A stretch of 59,332 nt of DNA from a virus: positions 1-59,332 of the IMG/VR virus record IMGVR_UViG_3300007522_000023, one strand, 5' to 3'. The position numbers and the translations under genes are program-made. Shown piece after piece: positions 1 to 57,855 of this stretch. Positions within the stretch are counted from its first letter, which is position 1; the number at the start of each line of letters is the position of its first letter. Below the pieces are notes generated by a model. It did not search any database. It worked only from the letters and a program-made list of their open reading frames with translations, and had not been told where the DNA came from.

Positions 1-968
1 CTATAATCGAAATAATCCCATATTTTAGCAATACATGAATTAGATAAATATCGGTCATATAGTATATATTCAGCTATATCCCAAGAACCATTTAAGATTG
101 TTGTGTCATTACCAATATTTGGAAAACTAGGACCTTTTTGTCCTGCAATAAACCAATTTGGGTTAGTTGGATAATTCACACCGTACTTAACACCACTACC
201 AGAACCATTATTACAACCATTGGCAAAAGTAAACCCACTATTACCAGCAAACTCATTTTCATTATATATATTTGCTTGAATAGTGTTACCGCTTACTCTA
301 ACAGTTAATCTCAACCACTTAGTCCAATCCGAAACAGCTAAACTTAATGAATTACCAGAACCAAGACCTGGGTCACAATTCGGACCAGTAGCTAAATTAT
401 CGTAATACCAAATCCTTAAAGAATTGGAGCTCGTTCTAAAATCAATACCCCAACCATCTCTTCTATTACCACTGGTATCATTCCCATTTTGGAATAAAAC
501 AACATTAGCTCCTTGGTCATTGTCTGGATAAGTTGTTGAATTTGGGTTAATTTGTCTACTTCTAAAAATTGTTGAAAATGAAAACTCCGTTAATTTTGAG
601 TAGGATGCATCATATGGAATATTTAAAAAATTAGCAGTATTATTACCAAAACTTTTCCTATCAAAACTAATAAATGGATGTAAATTTGAAGTTGTGTCAC
701 CAGTCCAATAATCAGGCCAATACTCAGGGTTGTTAACCGCTTCAGCACTATTTTCAAGTGTCGCTTGATTACCAAATCGGGATTGCCCACCCCAAGTTGT
801 TAAACAGCTTAAACATGGCGCTTGGGATGCGGTTGCACCACTTGATAAAACACCTCGCCTAGCCGTCATCCAAATTACTTGTTCAACACCGCATATTTTG
901 GCTGGTAATTCAGTTTGACGAGTGGCACCAGTTTCACCACTCCGATATACATAGGGTGTATTAATCAT
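1..968 (-). CDS. Tail-fibre/lectin-like virion protein, 3' end beyond the window
   Basis: An open frame of 322 codons begins with ATG at 968 and runs off the left edge without a stop. The translation is Gly/Asn/Ser/Thr-rich with few charged residues and alternating beta-type segments, typical of a phage fibre. Pieces such as FSFSTIFRSRQINP, WTKWLRLTVRVSG and a closing WDIAEYILYDRYLS resemble a concanavalin/LamG-type jelly roll (inference from pattern). It lies six bases downstream of the SHAEG fibre gene on the same strand and is probably cotranscribed with it; no separate promoter motif precedes it. It may bind host-surface glycan. The product cannot be named because the C-terminus is missing. 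Confidence 0.7.
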   Translation of the reverse strand, partial: MINTPYVYRSGETGATRQTELPAKICGVEQVIWMTARRGVLSSGATASQAPCLSCLTTWGGQSRFGNQATLENSAEAVNNPEYWPDYWTGDTTSNLHPFISFDRKSFGNNTANFLNIPYDASYSKLTEFSFSTIFRSRQINPNSTTYPDNDQGANVVLFQNGNDTSGNRRDGWGIDFRTSSNSLRIWYYDNLATGPNCDPGLGSGNSLSLAVSDWTKWLRLTVRVSGNTIQANIYNENEFAGNSGFTFANGCNNGSGSGVKYGVNYPTNPNWFIAGQKGPSFPNIGNDTTILNGSWDIAEYILYDRYLSNSCIAKIWDYFDY

Positions 969-974
969 AATATT

Positions 975-3053: not shown

Positions 3054-3062
3054 ATTTGTTTT

Positions 3063-3078
3063 CTTTATTATAAATATG
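3063..3078 (-). promoter_or_regulatory. Late-promoter-like element (CATATTTATAATAAAG)
   Basis: The coding strand of the SHAEG fibre gene reads CATATTTATAATAAAG, ending 9 bases before the ATG. It matches the element found before many other virion operons in this window. Transcription from it would give a very short leader. Confidence 0.6.
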
Positions 3079-3088
3079 TCATATTATG

Positions 3089-42681: not shown

Positions 42682-43977
42682 TTATCTTTTTTCTACTCTA
42701 TTAATCAAATCCATGATTCTTTTCGTAGATGGGTCAACATAAGCGTTACTTTCATTTAAATTTCTTGACACACTTGTTGTTGATTCCTTAATAATTTTGC
42801 TCTCAACTGATTCAGAAATTGATTTTCTTGATTCCAATTCACCTTCAATAGTTTTAGCTAATTTTTTTGATTCTTTAATACTTGTTGCATTATCAAATCT
42901 TTTTAATATACTTTCTTTTTCAGTTTTTGTAGTAGAATGCTCTGTGAACAAACTAGTAACACTTGCAAGATTAGTATTCCAAACCACAGTTTCAATTAAC
43001 TTAGTTCTAAATTCTTTTAATGCGCCTCTAAATTGTTCGTTTTCACTTTTTAATTTAGTAGCTTCTTTCAATAAAGTGTTATACTTCTTAGCTGTTTCAT
43101 AAACTAATTTTTTTGATTTTAATAAAGCTTCTTCTTGAAGTTTAGCGTTAGTATGTGCTGTTGCAACATACTTTACCTTACCACCAACATATCTAGTTTC
43201 ATCTAATACTTCTTCTTCTTCAGATTCTTCTTCTTCAGATTCTTCTTCTTCAGATTCTTCTTCTTCAGATTCTTCTTCTTCAGATTCTTCTTCTCCACCG
43301 ACAGTTGGTAACCCACCTTCAGCATCCATCTCAATATCGTATTCTACATCATATTCAGATTCATCTTCCATATCAGAATCCATGTCTAATTCTTCCATAT
43401 CAGAACCCATATTAGAATCCATGTCTAAGTCTTCCATATCAGAACCCATATTAGAACCCATGTCTAAGTCTTCCATATCAGAACCCATATCCATTTCTTC
43501 TTTACCTTTTAATGAATCTAACTTTACGATATATTCCCCTGGCTCTTGAACGTTTAAACGAAGTTCATCACCAACAATTTCGATTTCATCCTCACCACTC
43601 ATTTTTTTATAAATTGCGATTACGTCATCATCAGATGCTCCTGTCATATCCATGTCCTCTATATCTAACGCATCAACGTCCATTCCCATTTTTGGTTCCA
43701 TTCCCATTTCTGGTTCAGCACCCATTTCTTCAGAGTCACCCATGTCATCTAGTCCACCTTCTAATTCTTCAGAGTCATCACCTAATGTGATTTCGTCGAA
43801 TTCTTCCTCCTCATAAAGGTCATTCTTTTCCATTGTTAAAAGAGATTCTTTTACAACACTATCAATTTCTTCTTTAGCGACGCTACGAAGTATTTCTTTT
43901 GTGTTAGCATTAAGAGCATTTTGAATATTTTTAATATCCAACATTGCTTCTTCGATTATTGATTTCTTTTCTGCCAT
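42682..43977 (-). CDS. Prohead core scaffold protein (T4 gp22-like)
   Basis: 431 residues, very acidic. Helical N-terminus MAEKKSIIEEAMLDIKNIQN, then Met/Asp/Glu-rich repeats (MGSDMEDLDM type units, about 160-210) and a run of SEEEE units encoded by 15-bp DNA repeats near 43208-43294. A coiled-coil C-terminal half follows (AKKYNTLLKEATKLKSENEQ; SKKLAKTIEGELESRKSISE). It lies between protease and capsid genes exactly as gp22 does in T4. I/L-x-E sites are frequent, so the protease would break it to peptides during maturation. Function is assigned from position and composition, not from clear homology. Confidence 0.8.
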   Translation of the reverse strand: MAEKKSIIEEAMLDIKNIQNALNANTKEILRSVAKEEIDSVVKESLLTMEKNDLYEEEEFDEITLGDDSEELEGGLDDMGDSEEMGAEPEMGMEPKMGMDVDALDIEDMDMTGASDDDVIAIYKKMSGEDEIEIVGDELRLNVQEPGEYIVKLDSLKGKEEMDMGSDMEDLDMGSNMGSDMEDLDMDSNMGSDMEELDMDSDMEDESEYDVEYDIEMDAEGGLPTVGGEEESEEEESEEEESEEEESEEEESEEEEVLDETRYVGGKVKYVATAHTNAKLQEEALLKSKKLVYETAKKYNTLLKEATKLKSENEQFRGALKEFRTKLIETVVWNTNLASVTSLFTEHSTTKTEKESILKRFDNATSIKESKKLAKTIEGELESRKSISESVESKIIKESTTSVSRNLNESNAYVDPSTKRIMDLINRVEKR

Positions 43978-44100: not shown

Positions 44101-45966
44101 TTAATCAGATAAAAATTTATCTAAATCGTCTAAAAGATTTTCATTAAGTAATGGTTTTTTAATATTTAAGCTCTCTACGTAAGGTTTTAATTCTTCATGA
44201 TTTCTACCAATCCAAGCATCTGGGGTAGATGGTGCAGTAACTACATCCCAACAAATTATCTCGTAATCATCTTGAACTATTTGTTGACCATCTTTACTCT
44301 CTTTAAGTGAACCAACACCTCTTGATGATACTCCAATTTTAATTCTATTTCTTAATAGGTTGGCAACATCATCACCTTTACAAGATATGATACCTAAGTT
44401 TACAAAACCTGGACTCATGATAACTTCCATCTTACCCATAAGTGTATGACCTTCCCACCACGTTTCAACAATATTATGTGAAATCCTATCACCAGCAATA
44501 ATAGATGAGTTTCCATTCCAACAAGTTTTACCATTATCTCTAACATAGAACACATGATTAGGTACATCTACACAATAAACATTATCGTTATATTCAACTA
44601 ATTCAGTTTTTAATGTTCTTTTATCTAAATAAATACCTTTTGTTGTTGAAATATGTAATCTATTCATTGGTTTTGAATGACCTTTTTTAATTACTCTATT
44701 GTCAAACATTCTATCATAATTTCGTTCCTCAATTCTTAAATTAGATGAGTACCCAATTTTTAATATAATTTCTTGTAAATCATTTATTAATTTTTTAGAA
44801 GTACTAAAAACTTCTCGATATTTACCACCTCTAACTCGACCATCCCCCAAAACGAACCAATCTATAAAATCAGATAATAAATTATCACTTAATCCTTTTA
44901 ATTCAGTTGGTATAAATTTATCTTGTGATTTACCAAATTGTTTTAAATAATTATGTAATCTAGCATCATTTATTTTAAAATCTACTTTGCCATCTGAATA
45001 TATTATTTCTTTAAAACTTAATGGTAATGATTCTAATAATTCTCTTATCAGTATTTTACCATTTTCTTTTTTCTGTGTTATTTTACAAACATAACCACTA
45101 TCAGATGATTCAAAACCATATTCTTTTTCACCATTTTCAGTTACTCTAGATATTCTTTTTTTTGTTTTACTAACCACAACACAACCATCGGCTAAATAAA
45201 TTCCCATAAATTTGACCCACAAATCCATTGGTATCTCAATATCACTCATCAATTCTAATTTTTTACTGTATGAGGTATTAAAAGCTATTTCGTTTTCATC
45301 TAACCCTTTAATTGTAAAAAATTTTTTATCGTCACCAATCCACTTACCAACTTTAGGTATATACATTTTATCAATACCTTTAATCTTGTGTTCGTGTATG
45401 TCTGTAGCGGTAATAAAACTTCCATTACCGTTTCTATCTATAACCCAAAATTTATGGTTAGGTGTGACCATTAAGTCAATTGACCTACCTTTTATTGAAA
45501 TCATACTACCGTTGTAATGTTTAACTATTTTTTTTGTTATAGTCTTTAGTTCTATTTGGTTTGAAATTGGGTTTAAAGTGTATACTTCTTCATTTGAAGA
45601 AACATCTTTAATATATTTCCAACCATCTTTTGTTAAAATTTCAGCACTTTGTCGGTGACATTCTGGATGGTCTAGTTCACCCACAGCTCTACGTTCCCTA
45701 ATGACCTCTTGGTAAAGTCTATCTTGGCTTCTAAGAATAGACTCTGGATATATACGACCATTTCGGTTAAGTATTCCAAACTTCTGCAATACTACATACA
45801 CCAACAATGGTTCCGCTATAACCAACTTACCACTTTCAAGTTTTTTCATCTCATTGATGAAAGGTAAATTTCTTGGTTCATCTGGAGATATGTAACCAGC
45901 ATCATGCTCTATTAAGTAGCCATAACCACTTTCCCCACGTTTTAACGTTTTTATATCTTTATCCAT
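44101..45966 (-). CDS. Prohead core protease (T4 gp21-like) interrupted by an intein
   Basis: 621 residues before splicing and 237 after, close to T4 gp21. N-extein (1-102): GILNRNGRIYPESILRSQDR and RRAVGELDHPE, containing the catalytic His100. C-extein (487-621): SSIIAGDRISHNIVETWWEG, GKMEVIMSPGF and RIKIGVSSRGVGSLKE with the catalytic Ser. The intein (103-486) sits between Glu102 and Ser487, two residues after the His, so the protease cannot fold correctly until splicing. The mature enzyme would cut capsid and scaffold proteins after I/L-x-E. The gene has its own late-type promoter, separated by a terminator from the genes upstream. Confidence 0.92.
   Translation of the reverse strand: MDKDIKTLKRGESGYGYLIEHDAGYISPDEPRNLPFINEMKKLESGKLVIAEPLLVYVVLQKFGILNRNGRIYPESILRSQDRLYQEVIRERRAVGELDHPECHRQSAEILTKDGWKYIKDVSSNEEVYTLNPISNQIELKTITKKIVKHYNGSMISIKGRSIDLMVTPNHKFWVIDRNGNGSFITATDIHEHKIKGIDKMYIPKVGKWIGDDKKFFTIKGLDENEIAFNTSYSKKLELMSDIEIPMDLWVKFMGIYLADGCVVVSKTKKRISRVTENGEKEYGFESSDSGYVCKITQKKENGKILIRELLESLPLSFKEIIYSDGKVDFKINDARLHNYLKQFGKSQDKFIPTELKGLSDNLLSDFIDWFVLGDGRVRGGKYREVFSTSKKLINDLQEIILKIGYSSNLRIEERNYDRMFDNRVIKKGHSKPMNRLHISTTKGIYLDKRTLKTELVEYNDNVYCVDVPNHVFYVRDNGKTCWNGNSSIIAGDRISHNIVETWWEGHTLMGKMEVIMSPGFVNLGIISCKGDDVANLLRNRIKIGVSSRGVGSLKESKDGQQIVQDDYEIICWDVVTAPSTPDAWIGRNHEELKPYVESLNIKKPLLNENLLDDLDKFLSD
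44509..45660 (-). mobile_element. Intein with LAGLIDADG homing endonuclease in the prohead protease
   Basis: 384 residues, Cys103 to Asn486. The N-terminal splicing block is CHRQSAEILTKDGWKYIKDV. A T-x-x-H block lies at MVTPNHKFWV. The two LAGLIDADG helices are FMGIYLADG (253-261) and FIDWFVLGDG (367-376). The end is VYCVDVPNHVFYVRDNGKTC then WNGN before Ser. The penultimate residue is Gly instead of the usual His. Removing it restores ELDHPESS, the uninterrupted protease sequence. Confidence 0.92.
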
Positions 45967-45974
45967 ACTATATT

Positions 45975-45994
45975 ATTATAGTTATAAATATATG
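45975..45994 (-). promoter_or_regulatory. Composite late-promoter-like region before the protease
   Basis: The coding strand reads GCATATATTTATAACTATAAT, combining the ATATTTATAA element with the AACTATAAT box seen before the 46870, portal and (as AACTATAAC) capsid genes. It ends nine bases before the ATG. Confidence 0.5.
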
Positions 45995-46005
45995 CGTAAA
46001 ATAAA

Positions 46006-46025
46006 AAAGGCCCAAACGGGCCTTT
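46006..46025 (-). terminator. Intrinsic terminator between head-gene operons
   Basis: Stem AAAGGCCC / GGGCCTTT with loop AAAC, flanked by A and T runs so that it can act on both strands. It ends the transcript of the small head genes above it. Confidence 0.88.
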
Positions 46026-46046
46026 ATTAATTTTTATTATTTATTT

Positions 46047-46490
46047 TTATTTTTTTTTCTTATGGAAATTAAATGTTTTATTACTATCAAATACTGTCTT
46101 TATTAAAGTATCTGATATTAAAACCAACCCATCAATCATCACTTCGGATGTCAACGGAATTTCATTGCTTAGGAATAAAGTTATTTCACAATTCATAAAA
46201 CTTCTTTTACCTAATTTTATTCCAGATTCACGTATATCTAAATCAACTATCGTTTTATCGTTCTTGAACATAGTCTCATAATGTGAATTTATATGTCCGA
46301 ATAATGATTGTCTTATTTTTTTATTTAAATCTCTAATTGAACGACTGTAATTAAATTCACTATCCTCAGTTGGCTCTACCCATGCTGACAGATTAATATA
46401 TATTGCTTTAGGTTTCTTATTATTTACACTACCAAATATAACATTATAATTTTTGTGTCTATTAGTTTTAATTTCTTTACCAGTTTTCAT
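46047..46490 (-). CDS. Hypothetical protein in the head gene cluster
   Basis: 147 residues from the ATG at 46490. A longer frame from 46532 would add a hydrophobic leader (MTIPIIFIILVIKN) that overlaps the upstream stop region; the inner start MKTGKEIKTNRHKN follows an A-rich leader and is preferred. The body is alpha/beta: AIYINLSAWVEPTEDSEFNY, SIRDLNKKIRQSLF, KTIVDLDIRESGIKLGKRSF and NCEITLFLSNEI. The C-terminus is basic (FNFHKKKK). No domain is recognised. If the longer start is used, the first 14 residues would form a membrane or signal segment. Confidence 0.6.
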   Translation of the reverse strand: MKTGKEIKTNRHKNYNVIFGSVNNKKPKAIYINLSAWVEPTEDSEFNYSRSIRDLNKKIRQSLFGHINSHYETMFKNDKTIVDLDIRESGIKLGKRSFMNCEITLFLSNEIPLTSEVMIDGLVLISDTLIKTVFDSNKTFNFHKKKK

Positions 46491-46537
46491 ATTTTTTATT
46501 ACAAGTATAATAAAAATAATTGGTATAGTCAACCCCC

Positions 46538-46870
46538 TTAAAATTTACCCCATAAAGCTGCTACCAAAGCTATAACAATTTGTGTGAATGAAATAATCGC
46601 TATGGCAGCAACCCATCTATTTTTTTGTTTATATAGTTCATCTTTAGCTTCCTTCATTTGTGTTGGACTCCAAATCTCACTTACTTTATCAATCCAAACA
46701 TCATGTACTTGAACTTTAGCTTCAATATTTTTAACTTCAGTCAATTTTTGATTTAGCTCATTAAAACGAGCATCCATATCTTTACGCATATCCACATAGT
46801 TATCGTTTAAACGTTCTAATTCTTTTAAAACCAATTTACTGTAATCGTCCCACGTTTCTTTATCTGCCAT
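46538..46870 (-). CDS. Coiled-coil protein with a C-terminal membrane anchor
   Basis: 110 residues. A long helical region (LVLKELERLNDNYVDMRKDM then DARFNELNQKLTEVKNIEAK) is followed by one transmembrane segment, WVAAIAIISFTQIVIALVAA, and a short tail ending LWGKF. This topology is typical of haemolysin XhlA-like or holin-accessory proteins and of small prohead-assembly membrane factors; T4 proheads assemble on the membrane, so either is possible. An AACTATAAT box lies just upstream of the ATG. Confidence 0.65.
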   Translation of the reverse strand: MADKETWDDYSKLVLKELERLNDNYVDMRKDMDARFNELNQKLTEVKNIEAKVQVHDVWIDKVSEIWSPTQMKEAKDELYKQKNRWVAAIAIISFTQIVIALVAALWGKF

Positions 46871-46876
46871 TTTATA

Positions 46877-47104
46877 TTATAGTTTTACATTTCCTAATAA
46901 GTTCATTACTCTAAAACACATATTTTCGTAACATTTAATTTTACCTTTTTCACCAGTAACATTATCAATTTCATCTTTACCGCTATCAACAATACATTTT
47001 AACTCTATTAAAATATCTTTGTATGAACTATCTTGTTGTTGTGTTTCACACAACTTTTCTCTTAGTTCTTTTAATTTTTTTAAATTTTCACTAAGCTCTC
47101 CCAT
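46877..47104 (-). CDS. Small helical protein in the head cluster
   Basis: 75 residues from the ATG at 47104 (MGELSENLKKLKELREKL). A frame opening at 47134 overlaps the preceding gene by 26 bases, while the inner start leaves a normal four-base gap. Mostly helical with four Cys (KLCETQQ, LKCIVDSG, IKCYENMCF). It occupies roughly the place of the T4 prohead core genes 67/68 but shows no clear similarity. Confidence 0.55.
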   Translation of the reverse strand: MGELSENLKKLKELREKLCETQQQDSSYKDILIELKCIVDSGKDEIDNVTGEKGKIKCYENMCFRVMNLLGNVKL

Positions 47105-47108
47105 AATC

Positions 47109-47909
47109 TTAAGATAATGAACTTTTAAGTTCAACTAATTTTGATATATTTTTAATGAAATCTTCATTTATATCTTTTTTATCGTTTAATAATTTACACT
47201 TAACAGTTAATAATTTTACCTTCGCATCAGTATCAGATTCTTTAATTTTAACATCTATCAAGTCAATACATTCCCTTAGAGTATTAGCGTAAACCTCTAA
47301 TCTTTTAGTATCATCTTCATCCATTAAAACCTTGACTAATGCTTTTTCAGATTCAGTTAAATTAGAATATTTTTCGTTATATTTTTCAACCATTATACTA
47401 CTTAACATACTATTAGGTAAATCTATTGATTCTGATATTACTTTAACAGTATTACCTTTTAAATACTCAGATATATTATGTCTTGCTTCAACTATTATTG
47501 AGATTGTATCAGACTTCTTATTAGTCATAATAAGAAAGTGTATATTTTCATATAAACTTTTTTTAACTTCATCAATATTTTCTTTTTTAAATGTAATTTG
47601 ACGCATTAATGCTAAATTAGCTGCATCAATATCTTTCTTTGAAAACTTACTCATCAAATCAATTGATTCTTGAATATATTGAATGGCCTTAAAACTATCA
47701 GTCTCAACCATATTCTCTATACTATTATAGATTAGAAATTGCGTTCTAAGAATTTCATTTTCACTAATCATCTTAAAATATGACTTAAATAGTTTCTTAT
47801 TGTCTTCATCCTTATTACCAATGTTTTCAGCAAGTATATTATTATAAACATCTTTTATTGCACCGAAATTGGCAACTGGAATTTTAGTTATTTTAATTTC
47901 TTTAGACAT
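47109..47909 (-). CDS. Hypothetical helical protein between portal and protease
   Basis: 266 residues, not recognised. Nearly all helical, without Cys-rich or membrane segments apart from amphipathic helices: ANFGAIKDVYNNILAENIGN, TQFLIYNSIENMVETDSFKA, LALMRQITFKKENIDEVKKS and VKVLMDEDDTKRLEVYANTL. It lies directly downstream of the portal gene and upstream of the protease, where T4 carries prohead core genes, so a role as internal scaffold or assembly factor is plausible (inference). It has a full consensus promoter element. Confidence 0.65.
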   Translation of the reverse strand: MSKEIKITKIPVANFGAIKDVYNNILAENIGNKDEDNKKLFKSYFKMISENEILRTQFLIYNSIENMVETDSFKAIQYIQESIDLMSKFSKKDIDAANLALMRQITFKKENIDEVKKSLYENIHFLIMTNKKSDTISIIVEARHNISEYLKGNTVKVISESIDLPNSMLSSIMVEKYNEKYSNLTESEKALVKVLMDEDDTKRLEVYANTLRECIDLIDVKIKESDTDAKVKLLTVKCKLLNDKKDINEDFIKNISKLVELKSSLS

Positions 47910-47917
47910 ATTCTACC

Positions 47918-47933
47918 TTTTATTATAAATATC
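47918..47933 (-). promoter_or_regulatory. Late-promoter-like element (GATATTTATAATAAAA)
   Basis: A full match to the consensus on the coding strand, ending eight bases before the ATG at 47909. It lies in the short gap after the portal gene. Confidence 0.65.
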
Positions 47934-47955
47934 TTTATTTTTTTAAAAATACCAT

Positions 47956-50900
47956 TTACTCTAACATTTTATCAATATCATCAATCATATTATCAATATC
48001 ATTATTAATTTTAATGTTTTTATCATAAACTTTAGTTTTCTCACCTTTATCTTTGTTGCTTGGCTTTACAGCCTCAATTAAGATATCAATAAATTTACTT
48101 TCGTATTTTTTGGTTCGTTTATTTAATTTAGCAGTTAAATTATTTTTCCTTTCAGTTAATTGTTTATCAATTCTTTTAATATTTTCAGATAATGTTGAAC
48201 CGAAATCTAAGTCTTCACCACCAGATTCTGCGCCAGTACCACCAGCTTCTCCACCTAATCCACCATCAGCACCCTCATCAGCACCCTCATCAGCAACCTC
48301 ATCAGCACCCCCATCTTCAGCATCACCGAAATCTAAGTCTTCACCACCAGTACCACCGCCACCAAATCCGCCACCAAATCCACCACCTAATCCGCCACCA
48401 CCAGTTTCTCCACCACCACCAGCTTCTACACCACCAGCTTCCCCACCAGCACCACCTTCTAAAGCAGCTTGGTAATCACCGTAAATTCTATCAACCGTAT
48501 CAAACATACCAGTATGTTTAATTACATTAGCCGTATTAGCTAATTCAGCAGCAGCAGCTTTCTCCATTCTTTGTTCAAGTAAATCTTGTTTAATTTCATC
48601 ATCAGACCAACCTAATATCTCTCTATGAGCACGAGTCCATGACATAGTACTAAATCCAGTTCCAATATCGGATGTTGCATCTTTAAGTAATGAAACTTTA
48701 AGTTGTAAGTTTTCAATTTTAAGCATTTCAGCTTGTGTTGATGGATTATTTAATGTAAGTGTGAAATTATCTAAATCATCCTCAAACCCTAAAATATATA
48801 AATGTATAATAGCAATCTTGTTAAGTTCTTGTAGCATAGATTGCTGTATTCTATTTATTGTTCTAGAAAAACGAACGTCTTGTATCGCTAAATTTTTACC
48901 ATCACCAGATGTCTCATCAAAACCTAAGAAAGGTTTAGGTACACGCAAAGCTGTAAATAAATTACTTCTTAAATATTCAATATCAGCAATTTGGTCTAAA
49001 TTACTGTTTTTCAAGTAGTTACCAGCTTCTGTTGCAAATGTATGATAATTATGGTATAATTCATCACCATCTACGGTAATTGTACCAGTATCTTCTTTAA
49101 CCTTTAACCATTCAATATTAACTATTTTATGATTATAGTTGGCTTCTTCAACAGATTTATTAGACTTTTCAATATAATATCTCCAAGCTATTACGTTCTT
49201 ATAACCTAACTCTTCAGCTGTTACTTTACACCAGTCTCTGTAATTCTTAAACCCACGTTCTTTAATCATCTTATCTAGATGATTACGTGTAAATTCATTT
49301 AGGTTTGTTAGTGAGCTTCTAATGTCTTTATTTGAATCCGTAAACTCAGTCATGAAATCTTCATTTGAATTTAGTTCAACCAATGTCAAATCAGCTTTAC
49401 CACAAAGTTTAAACATTTCAAAGAACATATTATAAAGTTTGTCACTAAATGTGATTGTTTGTTTCTTACTAAATACTTTACGTCTGTATTCGTCAGATTC
49501 CCAGTTTTCTTTGGCTATCTTAGAAAAACTTTCTTTAAATTCATCAGTTGATTTAGCTTTACTAATGGCTTCACCTCTTAACTTAATAATCCCATATTTA
49601 TTAAGATTATTATTAAATGTTTCATTAGATTTAATTCTAGAATTAATTGAATTTAATTTAGATTGTTCACCTCTAATTGATTTCTCATCTTCTGTTTGAT
49701 TAGAGATGAACTTATTAATACCTTTAGTTATTTTACGTATGTTTTCTTTAGCCTTATCTGGAGTAGACCATAACTCATGCCTATGGTATTGATAATGGTC
49801 TCTTGAATTCATTAACGTTAAATTTTTAGGTACATTATTAAATCTATCGTTATCAACATGGTGAATAGTTTTCATCTTAGTTTTATAATAATCACCTTCA
49901 AATGTAAAATAATTTTCTTTATTTTTATCTTTCATAAAACTATTAACCATTCTATGTGTGAACACCCATTCTTGTTTTAACGAATCCCATACTCTTTCAT
50001 ATTTTTTAGAATATTTCTTTTTTAGTATATATTCCTCATCTCTATAGAAAGGCATTAACGAATCACCAATAACTAAATCTTGAGCTTCAACGAACCCTTT
50101 GGTTCTATGCACCCATTTATGGTCTGGTGTAGTTGTAATCGACTCACCATTATCCAATGTTATTTTCATAACCTCAGTATTTTTTCTAGTTTCACCAGCC
50201 CAAGTAATAACACCTGGTGCAAGTGCACCAGAAATTGGGTCACATGAATAAACCCAAAGGTTTCTATTACCATTATTCCATTCAGTTATTATTTCATTTA
50301 ACTCTAATGTTCTACCATCTAATAATGGTATACGAGTATCTAATGCGATACAAGCACCAGGTAATGTATCGATAGGGTTAGGAGCATCTTCAGTTCTAAC
50401 TGGAATGAAAAAATCTTGGTCGTTCGATAATTGGTTATAACGCAAATCAATTTGACCAGTTTGTGGGTCAGTAATTGGCATACGTTTAAATCTATCAGCA
50501 ATAGTATTAACATACTGTTCAACATCTGCATCATCAATATTTCCAACATAAATTTTATATACACGTCTCTCTGGTGCCCTAGTAACACGATACACAAGCA
50601 TTGAATCCTCAGATAAAATAAGTTGTTTCCAAATACGTCTAGCTTTCTCTAATACAGAATTATGGACAACGATACCATTTGCATAAAAATTATGATTATC
50701 ATTTTCAACATATATATCGTATGTTTCGTGTTCACCACTTTCCTCAATTGATTTAATCGGTTCTAAAATAAAATCGTTAGTTAACCTATTACCAATTAAA
50801 TCATATTTATTTTTTTGCCTTATTATTGGAACATTAACATTATTTAGATTAATTTTATCAACAACCAATAAATCACCTACTTTAAAATCTAGCGTATTTT

Positions 50901-51870
50901 TATAATCGAATTTATTTAATTCGGTATTATAATACATTATCTTATGTTCTTTAGATGCGTCTATAAAATTATGTTTGGTACTAAGTTTATAAGTTTTTTT
51001 ATTACCAGAATTAATAGTATCCAATACTTTCGACAATACTTTAACTTGATTTATCTCATCAAATGAATAAACCATATCACCAATAACAATATCTTTTATC
51101 TCCTTATACCCCTCACTTGTCTCAACTCTAGAATTATATTTTAAACACGTACCATAAGGTAAACGTCTATCATCACCTAATAAACGGAAATGAGCAATTT
51201 GCCAAGAATTAAATTCAACATCACGACCTCTCCAAAAGAATTTAACTTTACCACTATCAGAACCTTCATCTATAGTAGTTTCTCGACCAGAAATCATATC
51301 AAATAATCCAAATTCTCTACGTTCCATCTCATAATTAGGCATCTGTTTACCACCTAATACACCTTGTGATTCATCTATATTTAAATATAAAAAATTATCA
51401 CCATATTTACAAGTATTTCTTGTCCACATAGGTAAAGACGTGTGTAAATCTAATCTATTGAAGAATAAATCCTCCAATATAGTTTTAACACGTTTACTAT
51501 CAGAATAAATATTAATCATTCTACCACTATCATTAACTGTGGTTGATTCTTCCATCATAACATCTAAAGCAGCCGCTATAATAGGATAAAATTCCATAGC
51601 CTCAAAATCAACATAAGAACCAATTCTAGTCGTTTCATAGTTAATAGATTGTTGGAATAAACCACTCTCTACCTTTTTCCATGTTTGACCTAAATATTTT
51701 TTTTGTTGTGCTTGTAATTTAGCAGTATCATACTCTTGTTTACTATTTGTTTTAAGTAATTCATTATCTCCTATGTTATATCTTTGAGACTGTTGTTTTT
51801 GAACTTTAATACCTTCTGGACTTACAACTTGTCCTAATCTTTGAAATAATGTTGAATTTTTATTTGACAT
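47956..51870 (-). CDS. Portal protein (T4 gp20-like) interrupted by two inteins
   Basis: 1304 residues before splicing and 692 after. Exteins: 1-241 (IGSYVDFEAMEFYPIIAAAL, FFWRGRDVEFNSWQIAHFRL, LPYGT), 405-506 (SVLEKARRIWKQLILSEDSM, VTRAPERRVYKIYVGNI, then IPVRTEDAPNPIDTLPGA) and 956-1304 (SNLDQIADIEYLRSNLFTAL, RVPKPFLGFDE). These are the most conserved gp20 blocks. The protein forms the dodecameric ring through which DNA enters the head. The last part holds a Gly/Ala/Glu-rich low-complexity tail (about 1165-1250, with GGGFGGGFGGG and EDLDFG twice) absent from T4 gp20, then a basic end. No TATTTATA element precedes it, only an AACTATAAT box. Confidence 0.93.
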   Translation of the reverse strand: MSNKNSTLFQRLGQVVSPEGIKVQKQQSQRYNIGDNELLKTNSKQEYDTAKLQAQQKKYLGQTWKKVESGLFQQSINYETTRIGSYVDFEAMEFYPIIAAALDVMMEESTTVNDSGRMINIYSDSKRVKTILEDLFFNRLDLHTSLPMWTRNTCKYGDNFLYLNIDESQGVLGGKQMPNYEMERREFGLFDMISGRETTIDEGSDSGKVKFFWRGRDVEFNSWQIAHFRLLGDDRRLPYGTCLKYNSRVETSEGYKEIKDIVIGDMVYSFDEINQVKVLSKVLDTINSGNKKTYKLSTKHNFIDASKEHKIMYYNTELNKFDYKNTLDFKVGDLLVVDKINLNNVNVPIIRQKNKYDLIGNRLTNDFILEPIKSIEESGEHETYDIYVENDNHNFYANGIVVHNSVLEKARRIWKQLILSEDSMLVYRVTRAPERRVYKIYVGNIDDADVEQYVNTIADRFKRMPITDPQTGQIDLRYNQLSNDQDFFIPVRTEDAPNPIDTLPGACIALDTRIPLLDGRTLELNEIITEWNNGNRNLWVYSCDPISGALAPGVITWAGETRKNTEVMKITLDNGESITTTPDHKWVHRTKGFVEAQDLVIGDSLMPFYRDEEYILKKKYSKKYERVWDSLKQEWVFTHRMVNSFMKDKNKENYFTFEGDYYKTKMKTIHHVDNDRFNNVPKNLTLMNSRDHYQYHRHELWSTPDKAKENIRKITKGINKFISNQTEDEKSIRGEQSKLNSINSRIKSNETFNNNLNKYGIIKLRGEAISKAKSTDEFKESFSKIAKENWESDEYRRKVFSKKQTITFSDKLYNMFFEMFKLCGKADLTLVELNSNEDFMTEFTDSNKDIRSSLTNLNEFTRNHLDKMIKERGFKNYRDWCKVTAEELGYKNVIAWRYYIEKSNKSVEEANYNHKIVNIEWLKVKEDTGTITVDGDELYHNYHTFATEAGNYLKNSNLDQIADIEYLRSNLFTALRVPKPFLGFDETSGDGKNLAIQDVRFSRTINRIQQSMLQELNKIAIIHLYILGFEDDLDNFTLTLNNPSTQAEMLKIENLQLKVSLLKDATSDIGTGFSTMSWTRAHREILGWSDDEIKQDLLEQRMEKAAAAELANTANVIKHTGMFDTVDRIYGDYQAALEGGAGGEAGGVEAGGGGETGGGGLGGGFGGGFGGGGTGGEDLDFGDAEDGGADEVADEGADEGADGGLGGEAGGTGAESGGEDLDFGSTLSENIKRIDKQLTERKNNLTAKLNKRTKKYESKFIDILIEAVKPSNKDKGEKTKVYDKNIKINNDIDNMIDDIDKMLE
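49006..50352 (-). mobile_element. Intein with HNH-type endonuclease in the portal protein
   Basis: 449 residues, Cys507 to Asn955. The start is CIALDTRIPLLDGRTLELNE. The T-x-x-H block is ITTTPDHKWVHRT. The endonuclease is HNH-like: KTIHHVDNDRFNNVPKNLTL then MNSRDHYQYHRHE. The end is GDELYHNYHTFATEAGNYLK then N before Ser. Removal restores PGASNLDQIADIEYL. The penultimate Lys replaces the usual His. Its type differs from the LAGLIDADG inteins nearby, so it has a separate origin. Confidence 0.88.
50659..51147 (-). mobile_element. Mini-intein in the portal protein
   Basis: 163 residues, Cys242 to Asn404, with no endonuclease. It begins CLKYNSRVETSEGYKEIKDI, has a KHNFIDASKEHKIMYY block, and ends with the classical ETYDIYVENDNHNFYANGIV then VHN before Ser. 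Removal restores LPYGTSVLEKARRIW. Without an endonuclease it can no longer home by itself, so it is probably a fixed relic kept because imprecise loss would destroy the portal. Confidence 0.93.
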
Positions 51871-51916
51871 AATATATTTTTATTTAATTATAGTTAAAAT
51901 TTATTAAAAATAAATG

Positions 51917-52177
51917 TTATAATACATAACCGCATTCAACATAAGCTGATTGCTCTTTTTGACCATTCACAACTTTAATATCGTACACATAAGTTACATA
52001 CCAATCTTGTCCTTGAGAATAAGGTACTGCATTACAAAATCTAGATTCTCCACCACCAGAATTGTTACTGTTAGCATTTGTATACTTATTGTTATATGAA
52101 TTTACAGGTCGGCACCACGAATATAAACCATTTACAGAACTTTTCTGTGCAAATATTTTTTTACAATTTTTTGACAT
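51917..52177 (-). CDS. Small Cys-containing protein between terminase and portal
   Basis: 86 residues from the ATG at 52177 (MSKNCKKIFAQKSS). A longer frame from 52213 would run into the terminase gene, so the inner start is chosen. Features are KNCKKIF, LYSWCRPVNSYNN, GGGESRFCNAVPYS and a beta ending VTYVYDIKVVNGQKE. Four Cys and no membrane segment are seen. T4 has the sheath and tube genes in this place, but this protein resembles neither. Function unknown. Confidence 0.55.
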   Translation of the reverse strand: MSKNCKKIFAQKSSVNGLYSWCRPVNSYNNKYTNANSNNSGGGESRFCNAVPYSQGQDWYVTYVYDIKVVNGQKEQSAYVECGYVL

Positions 52178-52188
52178 TTTAAATATAT

Positions 52189-55100
52189 TTATTTTCTTCT
52201 TCCAAATAACCAAGCATACTCACCTTTTGGGTCTTGTATATTTTTATATGCCAAATGATTTGGATTTATTTTAACTTCAGATTTATTAGTCTCTTTATTA
52301 TAACTATTAGTAGTTGATGAAATTTGATTACCAGTAGCCCAACTATTTAATATTGCTTTGTTTTGTTTTTCTAATCTTTCCAAATTCTTAAATGAATGTT
52401 CCATTACCCAAAGACCCATACCCAATGACATAAGTAAATCATCGTGATATCCATCCATATGGTCTGGTCTACCATTTTTAAATATAAATGTTTTCATTTC
52501 TGAAATCATTCTAGTTGAACGAATCTTAATACCATTTGTTCTTATTTGATATTCTAGATTTGAAATCATTGGTACACGAACATTTGTTGCGTGAAAACCT
52601 GGTATTTTACTACCTTTATCATAAGACGTTAACTCTCTTTGTCTAGCAGAAAGTATTTTACCGTTATTACTATCATAATGTAAATATTTATAATCGAATT
52701 CTAATAATTTAAGTACCGTAGAAACACCCATACCACCAGTAACATCGACTACTGTATACGCTTTATATAGATTACCATACTCTTCAACAATTTGAGCTAA
52801 TAAATCTGGTTGTATTTTACCTTGATACTCTAAAACTTCCTCCATTGTGGTGAAATCTATAATAACGATAGTTGATGAATCCTCACTATCACCCCTAGAT
52901 ACATCACAATTATGGGTTGTTATATGGTGACACATAAAAGTATTAGTATCACATTCAAAATTATATACATTCCCAGTGAACTTATTCTTATTTATTTTTT
53001 TAACTCTAAAATAAATATAATCTTTATTATCATCAAAATGACAAGAACTAATGATTCGTTTATTCTTGGTATTAAAATCACCAATATCAAATTTATTTAA
53101 CTTAATATCATCAGTTTTATAAATTAATTTTATTAAATCCAAACTGTCATGATTACCTAAAGTTAAATTGTAGGTCTCGCTTTGTTGACATTCACGACCA
53201 CAAATTATTGTAATTTTAGCATCTCGTAACTTATCTAAACATGAAACAACTCCCAATGAAAAAATAATATCTTGTACCGACTCCAATAATTCTAAATTGG
53301 TACTAACAAAACTTACCTTAGAATATTTCTTCCCGTTTTTCTGAGTTTTAACCCAACACCCATCACTATCAAAATACCCTCTAATTAATTCTTTTTTATT
53401 TTCATCAGATATAAACTTAACCCATTCTGATATTTTTTTACCATGTGAGTATTGTCCGAAATTTTCTAATATGAAATAATATAAAAATTTAGAATTAAAC
53501 ACTAGTTCAAAAGTACTACCTTTATCGATAAATGATGGTGAACTTTTAAATAATCGTTTTATTATATCTTTACATTTCTCAATATAACCTTCATGTTTTT
53601 TATCAAAACATAACGATATTGCATATGAGTGTTTATTTTTATCTAACCACCCATCACCTAACCACATACCCATAAACCACCAAAAATCGTTCTCAAACAA
53701 TGGTGACTCAAATTCAAATTCACATCTGACAGCATTATCTATCTTCCATTTATTATTATAGCCACTTTTAATTGACTCTTTATAAATATTCGGCACCTTG
53801 ACCCAATCCCCAATCTCAACCTCTTCTACCCTAGTATAATTAAAATCAAAATCCCAATACCTATCATTAAATTTATATTCATCATTATTTTTATCATAAT
53901 TTCGTTTTAAATTAGATTTACTAATTAAAATTGGGTGTTCCTTAGTAAATGTTGTTGTTCTAAATGTATTATCCATTTGCATTTCAAACACATCTTCATC
54001 AACCACTTGGTAAATTTGTTTATTAATTATATTCACATAATTACCATCTTCACTTATTAACCTATCATTAATATCAACATCTTCAATATTTACCAATCCT
54101 TTATCGGTTAAGACTTTTTCATTCGGTGGTAAACATCCTAAAATATATTGGTGACCCTCAATAGGTTCTTCCCATATCCAAGTCTCTTGCTCTAGACCAT
54201 GCATATACTTAGGTTCTCTTACATTATTTTTATCTTGATATTCAATATACTCTTCATTAATAACGTTACCACCAGAACCAATAAATGACACATCTAATTC
54301 TTGTGCAATCATTTTTGAATCATTATTCATACCTAAACACATCTCTTCATACCAACTCGATGTAGGTTTCCACCCATCACTTATTCGTTCTGAATATGTT
54401 TTAAATGTAAACTCAACCTCTTTCTCCAAAAGGTCCCCTTTAATCCATCTAAGGTCTTTATTATAACGTAAATCTTCAAACCATCTCATCTCAACAATGT
54501 TGAAATTATTCTTTTTATTTTTAGCTTGGTCATAAGTCTTATAATATAAAGAATCCATACCATTAGGTGTTTGATGACCTAATATACCATTATAAATAAC
54601 GGAATGACACCAAAAATCATTAGTTTCGGGTAATGAAACATCATATGTTTTATTTTTAAGTTTTTCTAATTTAGTTATTGGAACCCATTTTGAATCTTTA
54701 AAATTAATTTTATCAATTGAATATCTGGATAAATCAAGATTTAAAACATTAATAAAATAATCTATAAATTCATTAAAAATATTTACTGATAAATTAGCTG
54801 TTTTGTTTTTATTAGAAATTCTAATTTTATTAACTAGTAAACCAGTGTTAGATAATTTTTTAACTAATTTATGTTCGTCTATAATATTTCTAATTATATT
54901 TTTACCGTTTGGTATTATTCTATATCCATTATTATATGATACTAATTTATTTTGGTCTCTTTTTATTTGTTTCCTATTAAATCTAAAACCAATGGTATCG
55001 TAATATTTATCCGCATCAATAGATGTTGATGAAAGTCTATAATATTGACTACTAACTTTAACTTTTTTAGTTGGTGATGTTATTCCTTCTGAATAATCAG

Positions 55101-57855
55101 TTAATATACCAAGATTTAAAAATAAAAACCTTATTTGTTGAATTAATTTTTTAGAGGATAAATTTATACCTACCCTACCTCTAATATTATCAGAATAACC
55201 ATCACCATCCATAATACCTTGTAACATAGCAATAATATTTTCACGCCCCATTTCAAGTAAACGTCTAGGTATTAATTTATTTGGTGCTTTTAAGGTTAAA
55301 TCAAAACCCAAATACTCTAACAAACTACCTAAATATTTAGATGAAATTTTATAGTGTAAATTATCGTGTGATGAATAATCAAACCCAGCATTAGATATGT
55401 ATGTACCAACATCATCACCACATGATATCGTAATATCACAACCAACAATAATACCATCAATATTTTTTGGTTTATAACAAGACCCTTCTGATAAATATAA
55501 ACCAATTAGATAAGCTAAATCAGTATTTATTTTATCATAAATTATTTTTGGTTTATTTTCTCTATTTGAAAACTCATAGGCAAAATCAATAGTATCGTTA
55601 TTACCGAAAATATTAAACGAATGTTGTACGTTAACATAATCACCAATTTCTAATTCACTAACCGTAAACCAATCATATTTGTTTTTTTTATTTGAATAAG
55701 ACCACAATTTATGTGTTTCAGTCGACTCAAGTTCTGAATTAGTAGTTGTTAATTTTATAGTTTCTTGAAAACCATTATTAACAATTAAATTTGATTTCCT
55801 AGATATATTATTTCCTCTAATATTATATTCTTTAACATAATAACCTAAATTAGGTATATCTGGTTCATCATAATTAATAATGTCTTTCATTTGTTGTAAA
55901 CCAGTATCAGTAAAAATAAAAGTATCTTCAGTAACACAGGATATAAGTGTTGCTCGACCCCCAGTATTATGACTTATAATACCGTTTGAAATAAATGAAT
56001 TTGTTTCTGGTACATGTAAATCATAAGTATAATCTTCTGACTCAGTTATAGAAATAATTTCATCAATATAAAATAATTCTTGTCTTTTTAATTGTTCAGT
56101 TAATGATAATAAAAAAGCATTATTTGGTAACAAGGATAATAAACGGTTTAATGATTCGACACTTAATCTATTTAAGTCTGATTTCCAAAATCTTTCTAAA
56201 AATCTAACTTTAGTTTTAACTATATTATTTATTTGTAAAACTTCTAAAATTTCTTTATTACTTACATTAACAAATCTTGAGTTTTGTTTCTTATTTAATA
56301 AAAATTGTTTATTATTTTGTTTTCTATCTAATCTAAAACCAATTTCGTCATAAAATTTAATTGCATAATTTGAATATATTTTTAAGTTGTAAATTTTACA
56401 AATATGTTTTTTATTTTTTAATATTGATGATTTAGATGTTTTTTGTTCTTCATATTTAACATGTGATATAATACCAAAATTAAACAATAAAGTTTGTAGA
56501 GTTTGAATTAGTTTTTTAGATGTACTTGAATATTTAATATCTTTTATAGTACTCATACCATCACCATCGAACATACCTTGTAAAAATGCTTTAATAACAT
56601 CTTTAGGCATCTTTAATAACGCTAAAGGTATTTCTTTATCCCTAGCGTTATGTTTATCCAATCCAAACATTTTAAACCATTCAATTAATTCGGTTGAGTG
56701 AAATTGATAATGGAGGTCATCAACTTTTTTAAATGCGTTACCTAAACAAGCTTTATCTGTTAATAGAAAATTTGTTATATAATCGTCAATATTTGTGATG
56801 GTAATACCTCTTGAATTAAAATTACCCTCAGCTACGAATAAACCTAATAAATAAGAAAAATCTAAATTGTCACCAAGCTTTTTAGGTATTGTGATGTTTT
56901 TATTATTTTTGGTTTTATTGAAAACAAAATTTACTTCACTATTATCACTAAAATAATTTTGACCATATTGAATTATTGGTTTGTCACCAATTTTTAATTC
57001 GTTCATACGAACCCAATTTTCAGTTCCATTCCTATCAATTAAGATAGGATGTTTCCAACTCCCCTCTAATTCAACGCCTAATTTAGTTTTTATTTTAAAT
57101 GTTTGACCATATTCACTAACAAAAGTTTGAGTTGCATTAACAATATCACCATCTTTATTACAAACTTTATGTGGTAACTCCAAATCAGTGAAACCTATTT
57201 TATCTTTTTCAGAAACTAATTCATCAAGTTGAATTAAACCATTTTCAGTTAAAATTAACGAATCTTTTGTTAAGCATCCTAAAGCTGTAAGTGCGGCACC
57301 AAAAACTTCAGCACCATTATCAATATATGCAGCCTCATCCATGATAAGAAATGTAGGTGTAAAACCCCTCAAAGCATCTTTAGATGTAGCAACCGCTTTA
57401 ACACGACTACCATTAGGTAATTTTATTTCTTTTTTTGAATCTGTAATAAAAATTGATTTGGCGTCCTTTTTAGCATCACCACAATACTCACTTCCCCATA
57501 CCCATCTAGGTAATTGACCAAGAAAATCTTTAATCTTAGCTAAGAATTCAAATGCAAGTTCTTGTTTATTGGCAATAATAAGTATATTCTCTGGGTTATC
57601 CCTATCACCAAAACCTACTTTGATTGACATATATGCAGCGGTTGTTGTTGATACACCAGCTTGACGTGGTTTTGTTACAATATTAAATCTATGTTTATCA
57701 TATGCTTTAATTATTTCTTTTTGTCTAGGAAATAATTTAAAAGGTACGAAACCTTCTTGCGTTTTATCGAACGTTTCTAAATATGTCTCAATAGCATGAA
57801 CAGAATCAGTAAGACAATGAGCATACTCTTGAAATATTTCTTGTGTTGTTAACAT
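52189..57855 (-). CDS. terL: Terminase large subunit (T4 gp17-like) interrupted by three inteins
   Basis: 1888 residues before splicing and 586 after (T4 gp17: 610). It is the DNA-packaging motor with an N-terminal ATPase and C-terminal RNase H-like nuclease. ATPase: KPRQAGVST (62-70, Walker A), FLIMDEAAY (169-177, Walker B), and after splicing TGGRATLISTPNG (coupling motif). Nuclease: GCDVSRGD (first metal Asp1651), TVVDVTGG and HDDLLMSLG (later acidic residues). Exteins are 1-193, 631-639, 1096-1240 and 1650-1888. Inteins interrupt the coupling-motif region twice and the nuclease start once. It lies downstream of a consensus late promoter. The C-terminal tail (LAYKNIQDPKGEYAWLFGRR) would contact the portal in T4. 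Confidence 0.95.
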   Translation of the reverse strand: MLTTQEIFQEYAHCLTDSVHAIETYLETFDKTQEGFVPFKLFPRQKEIIKAYDKHRFNIVTKPRQAGVSTTTAAYMSIKVGFGDRDNPENILIIANKQELAFEFLAKIKDFLGQLPRWVWGSEYCGDAKKDAKSIFITDSKKEIKLPNGSRVKAVATSKDALRGFTPTFLIMDEAAYIDNGAEVFGAALTALGCLTKDSLILTENGLIQLDELVSEKDKIGFTDLELPHKVCNKDGDIVNATQTFVSEYGQTFKIKTKLGVELEGSWKHPILIDRNGTENWVRMNELKIGDKPIIQYGQNYFSDNSEVNFVFNKTKNNKNITIPKKLGDNLDFSYLLGLFVAEGNFNSRGITITNIDDYITNFLLTDKACLGNAFKKVDDLHYQFHSTELIEWFKMFGLDKHNARDKEIPLALLKMPKDVIKAFLQGMFDGDGMSTIKDIKYSSTSKKLIQTLQTLLFNFGIISHVKYEEQKTSKSSILKNKKHICKIYNLKIYSNYAIKFYDEIGFRLDRKQNNKQFLLNKKQNSRFVNVSNKEILEVLQINNIVKTKVRFLERFWKSDLNRLSVESLNRLLSLLPNNAFLLSLTEQLKRQELFYIDEIISITESEDYTYDLHVPETNSFISNGIISHNTGGRATLISCVTEDTFIFTDTGLQQMKDIINYDEPDIPNLGYYVKEYNIRGNNISRKSNLIVNNGFQETIKLTTTNSELESTETHKLWSYSNKKNKYDWFTVSELEIGDYVNVQHSFNIFGNNDTIDFAYEFSNRENKPKIIYDKINTDLAYLIGLYLSEGSCYKPKNIDGIIVGCDITISCGDDVGTYISNAGFDYSSHDNLHYKISSKYLGSLLEYLGFDLTLKAPNKLIPRRLLEMGRENIIAMLQGIMDGDGYSDNIRGRVGINLSSKKLIQQIRFLFLNLGILTDYSEGITSPTKKVKVSSQYYRLSSTSIDADKYYDTIGFRFNRKQIKRDQNKLVSYNNGYRIIPNGKNIIRNIIDEHKLVKKLSNTGLLVNKIRISNKNKTANLSVNIFNEFIDYFINVLNLDLSRYSIDKINFKDSKWVPITKLEKLKNKTYDVSLPETNDFWCHSVIYNGILGHQTPNGMDSLYYKTYDQAKNKKNNFNIVEMRWFEDLRYNKDLRWIKGDLLEKEVEFTFKTYSERISDGWKPTSSWYEEMCLGMNNDSKMIAQELDVSFIGSGGNVINEEYIEYQDKNNVREPKYMHGLEQETWIWEEPIEGHQYILGCLPPNEKVLTDKGLVNIEDVDINDRLISEDGNYVNIINKQIYQVVDEDVFEMQMDNTFRTTTFTKEHPILISKSNLKRNYDKNNDEYKFNDRYWDFDFNYTRVEEVEIGDWVKVPNIYKESIKSGYNNKWKIDNAVRCEFEFESPLFENDFWWFMGMWLGDGWLDKNKHSYAISLCFDKKHEGYIEKCKDIIKRLFKSSPSFIDKGSTFELVFNSKFLYYFILENFGQYSHGKKISEWVKFISDENKKELIRGYFDSDGCWVKTQKNGKKYSKVSFVSTNLELLESVQDIIFSLGVVSCLDKLRDAKITIICGRECQQSETYNLTLGNHDSLDLIKLIYKTDDIKLNKFDIGDFNTKNKRIISSCHFDDNKDYIYFRVKKINKNKFTGNVYNFECDTNTFMCHHITTHNCDVSRGDSEDSSTIVIIDFTTMEEVLEYQGKIQPDLLAQIVEEYGNLYKAYTVVDVTGGMGVSTVLKLLEFDYKYLHYDSNNGKILSARQRELTSYDKGSKIPGFHATNVRVPMISNLEYQIRTNGIKIRSTRMISEMKTFIFKNGRPDHMDGYHDDLLMSLGMGLWVMEHSFKNLERLEKQNKAILNSWATGNQISSTTNSYNKETNKSEVKINPNHLAYKNIQDPKGEYAWLFGRRK
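52909..54135 (-). mobile_element. Terminase intein 3 (LAGLIDADG), before the nuclease Asp
   Basis: 409 residues, Cys1241 to Asn1649. It starts CLPPNEKVLTDKGLVNIEDV, with T-x-x-H block TTFTKEHPILIS. Endonuclease motifs are FMGMWLGDGW (1394-1403) and IRGYFDSDGC (1491-1500). The end is GNVYNFECDTNTFMCHHITT then HN before Cys. Removal restores YILGCDVSRGD, putting the first nuclease Asp in place two residues after the junction. Confidence 0.93.
54571..55938 (-). mobile_element. Terminase intein 2 (LAGLIDADG), ending in Gln
   Basis: 456 residues, Cys640 to Gln1095. It starts CVTEDTFIFTDTGLQQMKDI, with block TNSELESTETHKLWSY. Endonuclease motifs are LIGLYLSEG (783-791) and LQGIMDGDG (878-886). The end is TYDVSLPETNDFWCHSVIYN then GILGHQ before Thr. 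The final residue is Gln instead of Asn, a rare but known variant. Removal joins LIS to TPNG of the ATPase coupling motif. Confidence 0.9.
55966..57276 (-). mobile_element. Terminase intein 1 (LAGLIDADG)
   Basis: 437 residues, Cys194 to Asn630. It starts CLTKDSLILTENGLIQLDEL, with a block around ELEGSWKHPILID. Endonuclease motifs are LLGLFVAEGN (336-345) and LQGMFDGDGM (425-434). The end is TYDLHVPETNSFISNGIISH then N before Thr. Removal joins ALTALG to TGGRATLIS. Only nine extein residues separate it from intein 2. Confidence 0.93.

Follow-up and report, generated by a model that had tools for sequence, protein, structure and literature searches.

A packaging gene cluster with six in-frame inserts

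We analyzed 59,332 nucleotides of viral DNA (IMG/VR record IMGVR_UViG_3300007522_000023, positions 1 to 59,332), referred to here as the window. Its minus strand carries a packaging cluster in T4-like order: the terminase gene TerL, the portal gene, three ORFs, the prohead protease gene, an acidic ORF, and a gp23-like capsid gene (Table 1). The original prediction, made from the sequence alone, had placed six inteins in three consecutive packaging and assembly genes between positions 44509 and 57276. Profiles, boundaries, and empty alleles in relatives bore out the inteins, the genes, and the span. The genes do form one cluster, but they are not strictly consecutive: an overlapping 98-amino-acid ORF lies between TerL and the portal gene, and ORFs of 266, 110, and 161 amino acids separate the portal gene from the protease gene. 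The inserts are all in frame, three in TerL, two in the portal gene, and one in the protease gene. They total 6,894 nucleotides, in agreement with the predicted figures of about 6.9 kb overall and 2.3 kb per gene, and they make up the whole difference between the codon counts with and without inserts. Three whole-record family searches matched TerL, the portal, and the protease only, and no intein was found elsewhere in the 59-kb window, the record being a partial genome.

Two further features of the cluster were observed. The C terminus of the portal (47956 to 48520, minus strand) is a long low-complexity stretch rich in Gly, Asp, and Glu. Between the protease and capsid genes, a repetitive acidic ORF rich in Met, Asp, and Glu (42682 to 43977, minus strand) occupies a position that fits a scaffold (gp22-like) protein; it had no match in Pfam or PHROG.

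Table 1. Features of the packaging cluster; slashes mark the junctions between extein and intein
Feature	Coordinates	Strand	Description
TerL (gp17-like) gene, three inteins	52189..57855	-	1,888 codons, extein 586 aa; extein vs T4 gp17 3ezk, 2.3e-19
TerL intein I1 (T1)	55966..57276	-	437 aa, LAGLIDADG; TALG/C...SHN/TGG; ATPase domain
Extein spacer TGGRATLIS, I1 to I2	55939..55965	-	9 residues
TerL intein I2 (T2)	54571..55938	-	456 aa, LAGLIDADG; TLIS/C...GHQ/TPNG; C-terminal Gln; directly upstream of TPNG motif
TerL intein I3 (T3)	52909..54135	-	409 aa, LAGLIDADG; YILG/C...THN/CDVSRG; nuclease motif
I3 +1 Cys codon (TGT)	52906..52908	-	Residue preceding the Asp aligned with T4 gp17 D401; Val in sister L005
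Portal (gp20-like) gene, two inteins	47956..51870	-	1,304 codons, extein 692 aa
Portal intein I1 (Q1)	50659..51147	-	163 aa, no endonuclease; LPYGT/C...VHN/SVLEK
Portal I1 deletion junction	50820..50821	-	201-residue LAGLIDADG domain absent vs 23242_000003 and 7516_000029
Portal intein I2 (Q2)	49006..50352	-	449 aa, HNH endonuclease; LPGA/C...LKN/SNLDQ
HNH motif of portal I2	49795..49872	-	Pfam HNH_3, portal residues 667-692, E 0.0056 (below cut-off); PHROG HNH families 1e-5
Prohead protease (gp21-like, peptidase S77) gene, one intein	44101..45966	-	621 codons, extein 237 aa
Protease intein (P1)	44509..45660	-	384 aa, LAGLIDADG; GELDHPE/C...WNGN/SSII

The inserts have the features of class 1 inteins

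Profile searches for intein and endonuclease domains gave splicing-domain matches in TerL, the portal, and the protease. Pfam Intein_splicing matched TerL at 4.8e-26 (three stretches), the portal at 3.6e-23 (two stretches), and the protease at 4.4e-5, which is below the Pfam cut-off. NCBIfam intein_Nterm matched them at 5.2e-14, 2.4e-13, and 0.0095, the protease intein thus falling below the curated cut-offs. Because the protease intein and TerL I3 were the weakest two of the six by profile, we predicted their folds (pLDDT of 85 and pTM of 0.83 for the protease intein; 71 and 0.72 for TerL I3). In keeping with a Hint fold, the best PDB matches of both models were the inteins TliVMA and PI-SceI, with E values of 1.6e-13 and 4.4e-14; at TM-scores of 0.55 to 0.59 and rmsd of 8 to 9.5, the domain arrangement is matched loosely.

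As the original prediction stated, each insert begins with Cys (6/6) and is followed by a Ser, Thr, or Cys, the +1 residues being Thr, Thr, Cys, Ser, Ser, and Ser. The block B histidine of inteins lies in a TxxH-type motif, and by eye this His is present in all six (SWKH, TETH, TKEH, SKEH, TPDH, and TPNH). TerL I1, TerL I3, and portal I1 end in His-Asn, TerL I2 ends in His-Gln, portal I2 ends in Lys-Asn, and the protease intein ends in Gly-Asn, so the penultimate His is absent from the last two. Inteins with variant penultimate or C-terminal residues are known, and these end variants are conserved among homologues. The three predicted architectures were also recovered, with LAGLIDADG in four inteins, HNH in portal I2, and no endonuclease remaining in portal I1. 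Pfam LAGLIDADG_3 was above its cut-off in the four (a second stretch in TerL I3 was below it), each of which has two acidic LAGLIDADG motifs by eye; the HNH residues of portal I2, also read by eye, are His-His, Asn, and His.

With the inserts removed, the exteins rejoin into gp17-, gp20-, and gp21-like proteins that match all three structures. The strongest check came from the intein-free alleles of relatives, in which the alignment runs as far as each insertion point and picks up again beyond it. By every testable sequence feature, the six inserts are ordinary class 1 inteins. They are predicted to splice themselves out, and the five retained endonucleases would be expected to cut DNA.

Insertion points in conserved motifs

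All six inteins sit in conserved motifs, namely, the ATPase and nuclease motifs of TerL, the catalytic His of the protease, and two portal motifs. In an alignment to the solved T4 protein, TerL I3 is inserted one residue ahead of the gp17 nuclease residue D401. TerL I2 falls between the residues aligned with gp17 T286 and T287, in the TTPNG stretch, with TerL I1 nine residues upstream of it; the C-terminal Gln of I2 is kept in 14 of 15 occupied alleles. The portal I2 site, DTLPGA/SN, is aligned to DTLPGADN in gp20. In the protease, the insertion point is two residues past a His whose aligned counterpart in the 5jbl chain is an Ala, and that Ala fits a catalytic-site mutant; protease His85 is presumably the catalytic residue. 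Because the insertion points are in catalytic or conserved motifs, unspliced TerL, portal, and protease are probably inactive, and we infer from the positions in catalytic motifs that active enzyme would require splicing.

Patchy occupancy among relatives

A near-identical twin contig, 7519_000030, carries all six inteins at 99.85 to 99.88% DNA identity over six overlapping stretches. The closest relative after the twin is the sister contig L005, whose TerL extein is 97.3% identical in amino acids and 95.9% identical in DNA and in which all three TerL intein sites are empty. Its DNA alignment blocks stop at the TerL insertion points; it ends short of the portal intein sites and is informative for the TerL sites only. 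Two other contigs, L006 and L013, are empty at all six sites as judged from DNA junctions.

Occupancy was mapped by ORF-based alignment in 128 contigs and was patchy at every site. Occupied, empty, and no-call contigs numbered 17/91/20 at I1, 15/99/14 at I2, 11/104/13 at I3, 14/89/25 at Q1, 24/79/25 at Q2, and 11/48/69 at P1. These contigs are not independent, the same phage being counted twice as the window and 7519_000030, as 28361 and 28364, and as 0405 and 1097, and the sampling is biased, since the best 80 of 185 matches favor intein-free TerL and the other searches were aimed at inteins. Inteins of at least 120 amino acids were present in these genes in 48 of the 128 contigs (one in 21, two in 11, three in 8, four in 1, five in 4, and six in 3). 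I1 was found without I2 in 8 contigs, and I2 was found without I1 in three distant contigs (49436, 36885, and 17917). Eight more intein sites lie beyond the six of the window: portal 94, 108, 153, and 266; TerL 65, 294, and approximately 504 to 506; and protease 97. When named phages were queried with five of the inteins (all but portal I1), only homologues of less than 60% identity were found.

The original prediction had called the six inteins exceptional. This holds insofar as the window is a joint densest case; it is not unique, since contig 28364_000026 (L101, L118, and L147) also has six, in TerL and the portal, of which three have shrunk to lengths of 141, 156, and 167 amino acids. Five inteins were detected in contigs of two further phages, one of which probably has a sixth, split intein.

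Several other inserts were seen in the course of this mapping. In 46006_002827 (L115, positions 2 to 6956), the TerL frame is interrupted near extein residue 294, and another ORF, of 400 codons, separates the two resulting ORFs; given the flanking intein-like N- and C-terminal pieces, this looks like a split intein whose nuclease is free-standing (a fractured gene) and is probably the sixth intein of that phage in TerL plus portal. An uncultured, unannotated 484-kb phage (LR756508.1, positions 139000 to 162000; L169) has, by eye, three portal inteins, one protease intein, and one in ORF 4898-6679. A portal insertion near residue 177 is present in 36885 and 37088, and more intein-like matches lie outside TerL, portal, and protease in L074 (2149 to 3201, minus strand) and L047 (6 to 980).

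Probable intein transfer and loss of an endonuclease

For all six inteins, the nearest sampled homologues outside the twin sit in phages whose host proteins are much less similar. In 23242_000003, amino acid identities to the window for the intein and the host protein were 96.8 versus 79.9% at I1, 99.4 versus 79.6% at Q1, and 95.8 versus 81.4% at P1. The corresponding values were 96.9 versus 77.0% for I2 (37294_000405), 98.0 versus 74.7% for Q2 (1097_000006), and 78.2 versus 35.5% for I3 (17917_005124). For 37294_000405, we rejected an extein value of 64% as an artifact of its truncated frame; residues 204 to 586 give the 77.0%. With the nearest donor just 78% identical, the I3 transfer appears to be older, or else its donor is unsampled. 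On a TerL extein tree that places L005 as the sister of the window, parsimony gave at least 11 changes of state for I1 (15 occupied among 101 rows), at least 4 for I2 (8 of 102), and at least 6 for I3 (8 of 102), this being a quick tree that drew long-branch warnings and had no control with shuffled labels.

In comparisons with the window, the endonuclease parts had dN/dS values of 0.12 to 0.63, and all 58 pairs showed purifying selection; these values are rough, with dS approaching or exceeding 1 in many comparisons, endonuclease limits set by eye, and nonindependent contigs. Such selection on the endonucleases fits mobility. Over its full length, portal I1 can be aligned to the inteins of 23242_000003 and 7516_000029, each 364 residues long, with a single in-frame gap of 201 residues that spans both LAGLIDADG motifs, and the part that is kept is 99.4 and 97.5% identical. 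As read from this alignment, portal I1 is the product of an in-frame deletion of the LAGLIDADG domain that its close relatives retain. Other deletions in relatives remove 141 to 142 residues at Q1 and 156 at Q2.

We considered whether I1 and I2, which are 27 nucleotides apart, were transferred as a single unit. I2 occurs mostly with I1, in a sample biased by the searches, yet each is also found alone. Both inteins are close to those of the window in 28364_000026, and both are distant in 1097_000006. The window bases between them have donor-like ends and a sister-like middle, which suggests that I1 and I2 entered separately.

A rewritten codon at the TerL nuclease site

At I3, the +1 residue adjoins the catalytic Asp and is Cys in each of the 11 occupied alleles, which represent about 8 distinct phages. 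Among the 104 empty alleles, it is Val in 64, Ser in 22, Ala in 11, Ile in 4, Cys in 2, and Gly in 1. Cys is therefore present in all I3 carriers and absent from 102 of 104 empty alleles, implying that invasion rewrites the host codon. Sister L005 has GTA (Val) where the window has TGT, and more changes lie within 15 nucleotides on either side; I3 therefore appears to have arrived with a short co-converted tract. At I1, I2, Q1, and P1, the needed +1 residue is already in most or all empty alleles. At Q2, Ser is present in 23 of 24 occupied rows (the remaining row is a contig end), and the 78 empty rows have Ser in 39, Gln in 19, Ala in 16, Thr in 3, and Cys in 1. Single odd rows at I1, Q1, and Q2 are one-residue boundary shifts or contig ends (46006, 46000, 24262, and L084), and Cys in the seemingly empty alleles of 40786_000030 (I1) and 42883_000543 (Q2) was discounted because, by eye, it begins an intein that is truncated or broken.

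Differences between the window and L005 concentrate at the insertion points, with 14 in the 87 nucleotides lying within 15 nucleotides of them versus 3.5% elsewhere, a crowding reached by 12 of 1,758 circular shifts. It fades as the interval is widened, with 38, 57, 6, 113, and 272 of 1,758 shifts reaching it at 30, 45, 60, 90, and 150 nucleotides. No strong shared-donor tract was seen in 10-codon identity profiles. Two contigs, L018 and L049, have a TerL without I3 yet carry Cys (TGT) at +1. The Cys looks real, and these codons may be scars of precise I3 loss; I3 is present in the nearest relatives of L049 and absent from those of L018.

Homing, interference, and regulation

These results very probably reflect homing inteins that accumulated through repeated transfer, as mobile genetic parasites of the most conserved spots. 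The six class 1 inteins would be translated within TerL, portal, and protease and removed by protein splicing to give intact packaging proteins. When two phages share a cell, an endonuclease would cut the intein-free allele at the conserved motif, and repair would copy the intein in together with a short flank; coinfection would thus be the route of transfer. The sites would have been invaded independently over time, with a large pool of T4-like phages as donors. The portal I1 endonuclease would later have been lost by the in-frame deletion, leaving an intein that now only splices, and invasion at I3 would have swapped the residue past the insertion point from Val or another residue to Cys, since a nucleophile at this position is required for splicing. 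The unusual features of the window are the close packing of its inteins, the site in gp21, and the residue swap at the nuclease site, all of which homing and accumulation account for. The kind of arrangement is already known, and its density is extreme, not unique.

Homing endonucleases of phages can act in interference, and the five endonuclease inteins might mainly benefit their carrier in coinfection, by cleaving packaging genes in rivals that lack the inteins. The presence of five conserved endonucleases, directed at essential motifs left empty in most relatives, would suit this role. However, the data do not require it, and the endonuclease is dispensable at times, having been lost from Q1 here and from both Q1 and Q2 of 28364_000026; we regard interference as unlikely. 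An equally doubtful extension would make the packaging module a multi-target battleground in which carriers gain by interference at catalytic codons and the price of entry is rewritten host residues (Val to Cys next to the nuclease Asp of TerL).

The suggestion, made along with the original prediction, that splicing delays or gates packaging found no support. Slow or conditional splicing would make the motor, portal, and protease active late or only in some conditions, and the location of all six inteins in conserved motifs, where the unspliced protein is probably inactive, would allow this; conditional splicing is described for Mycobacterium DnaB (PMC6195587). However, the patchy presence, the intein-free sister, and the site combinations that vary by contig are a poor fit to a required regulator, and the purifying selection on the endonucleases fits mobility instead. 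Regulation is very improbable as an explanation, though any single intein might still act as a gate. An assembly artifact or chimera, conceivable in a metagenomic contig, has almost no likelihood, given a second record, 99.85% identical, with the same six inteins, exact continuation of the frame by every intein, and occupation of the same sites in many other contigs.

Read as an accumulation of homing inteins, this 13-kb stretch brings the life stages of an intein together: the empty allele (in the sister), the armed intein, the freshly disarmed intein (portal I1), and the rewritten codon (TerL I3). A near-identical pair with three versus zero TerL inteins permits a direct measure of what inteins cost or bring to a virus, and the nine-residue gap between I1 and I2 allows the splicing and homing of neighboring inteins to be tested. 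For protein chemistry, these genes are a source of many new split-point and splicing variants.

Relation to known systems

A literature search at the level of titles and abstract openings found no report of an intein in a gp21-type protease or of six inteins in one packaging module. According to PMC5050341, mycobacteriophage TerL and portal inteins occupy functional motifs, and several of them reportedly have active homing endonucleases. The packaging-gene inteins of the window are likewise at functional motifs. As given there, the terminase inteins of mycobacteriophages occupy seven sites within the ATPase domain, whereas here one is in the nuclease motif and a single gene holds three. For the Crassvirales, PMC7886860 reports two inteins in TerL of one genome and up to three per genome. 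The cr118_1 intein is 38% identical to TerL I3 and sits at the matching motif (YIAG/C...THN/CDPYD); the Crassvirales TerL is unrelated to ours, and the accessible text reports fewer inteins per genome and names neither the portal nor the protease.

Among unannotated records, LR756508.1 and Nitratidesulfovibrio phage SRB7757 have a protease intein at the same point (GELDHP/D/C... and GELNHPS/C...), and the former carries one in its portal as well, at the Q1 point. In contrast to the window, LR756508.1 has an intein-free TerL, and its other two portal inteins are at different places. The phiCbK ribonucleotide reductase intein (PMC3556154) shares the C-terminal Gln of TerL I2; the gene and phage differ. 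For the haloarchaeal MCM gene, PMC10643990 describes clustered inteins in one gene, patchy gain and loss, and +1 co-conversion from Pro to Ser at MCM-d. Both systems have several close inteins in a single gene, patchy distribution, and a co-converted +1 residue; the haloarchaeal gene encodes a cellular helicase, whereas here a virus is the host and the exchange is from Val, Ala, Ser, or Ile to Cys next to a catalytic Asp.
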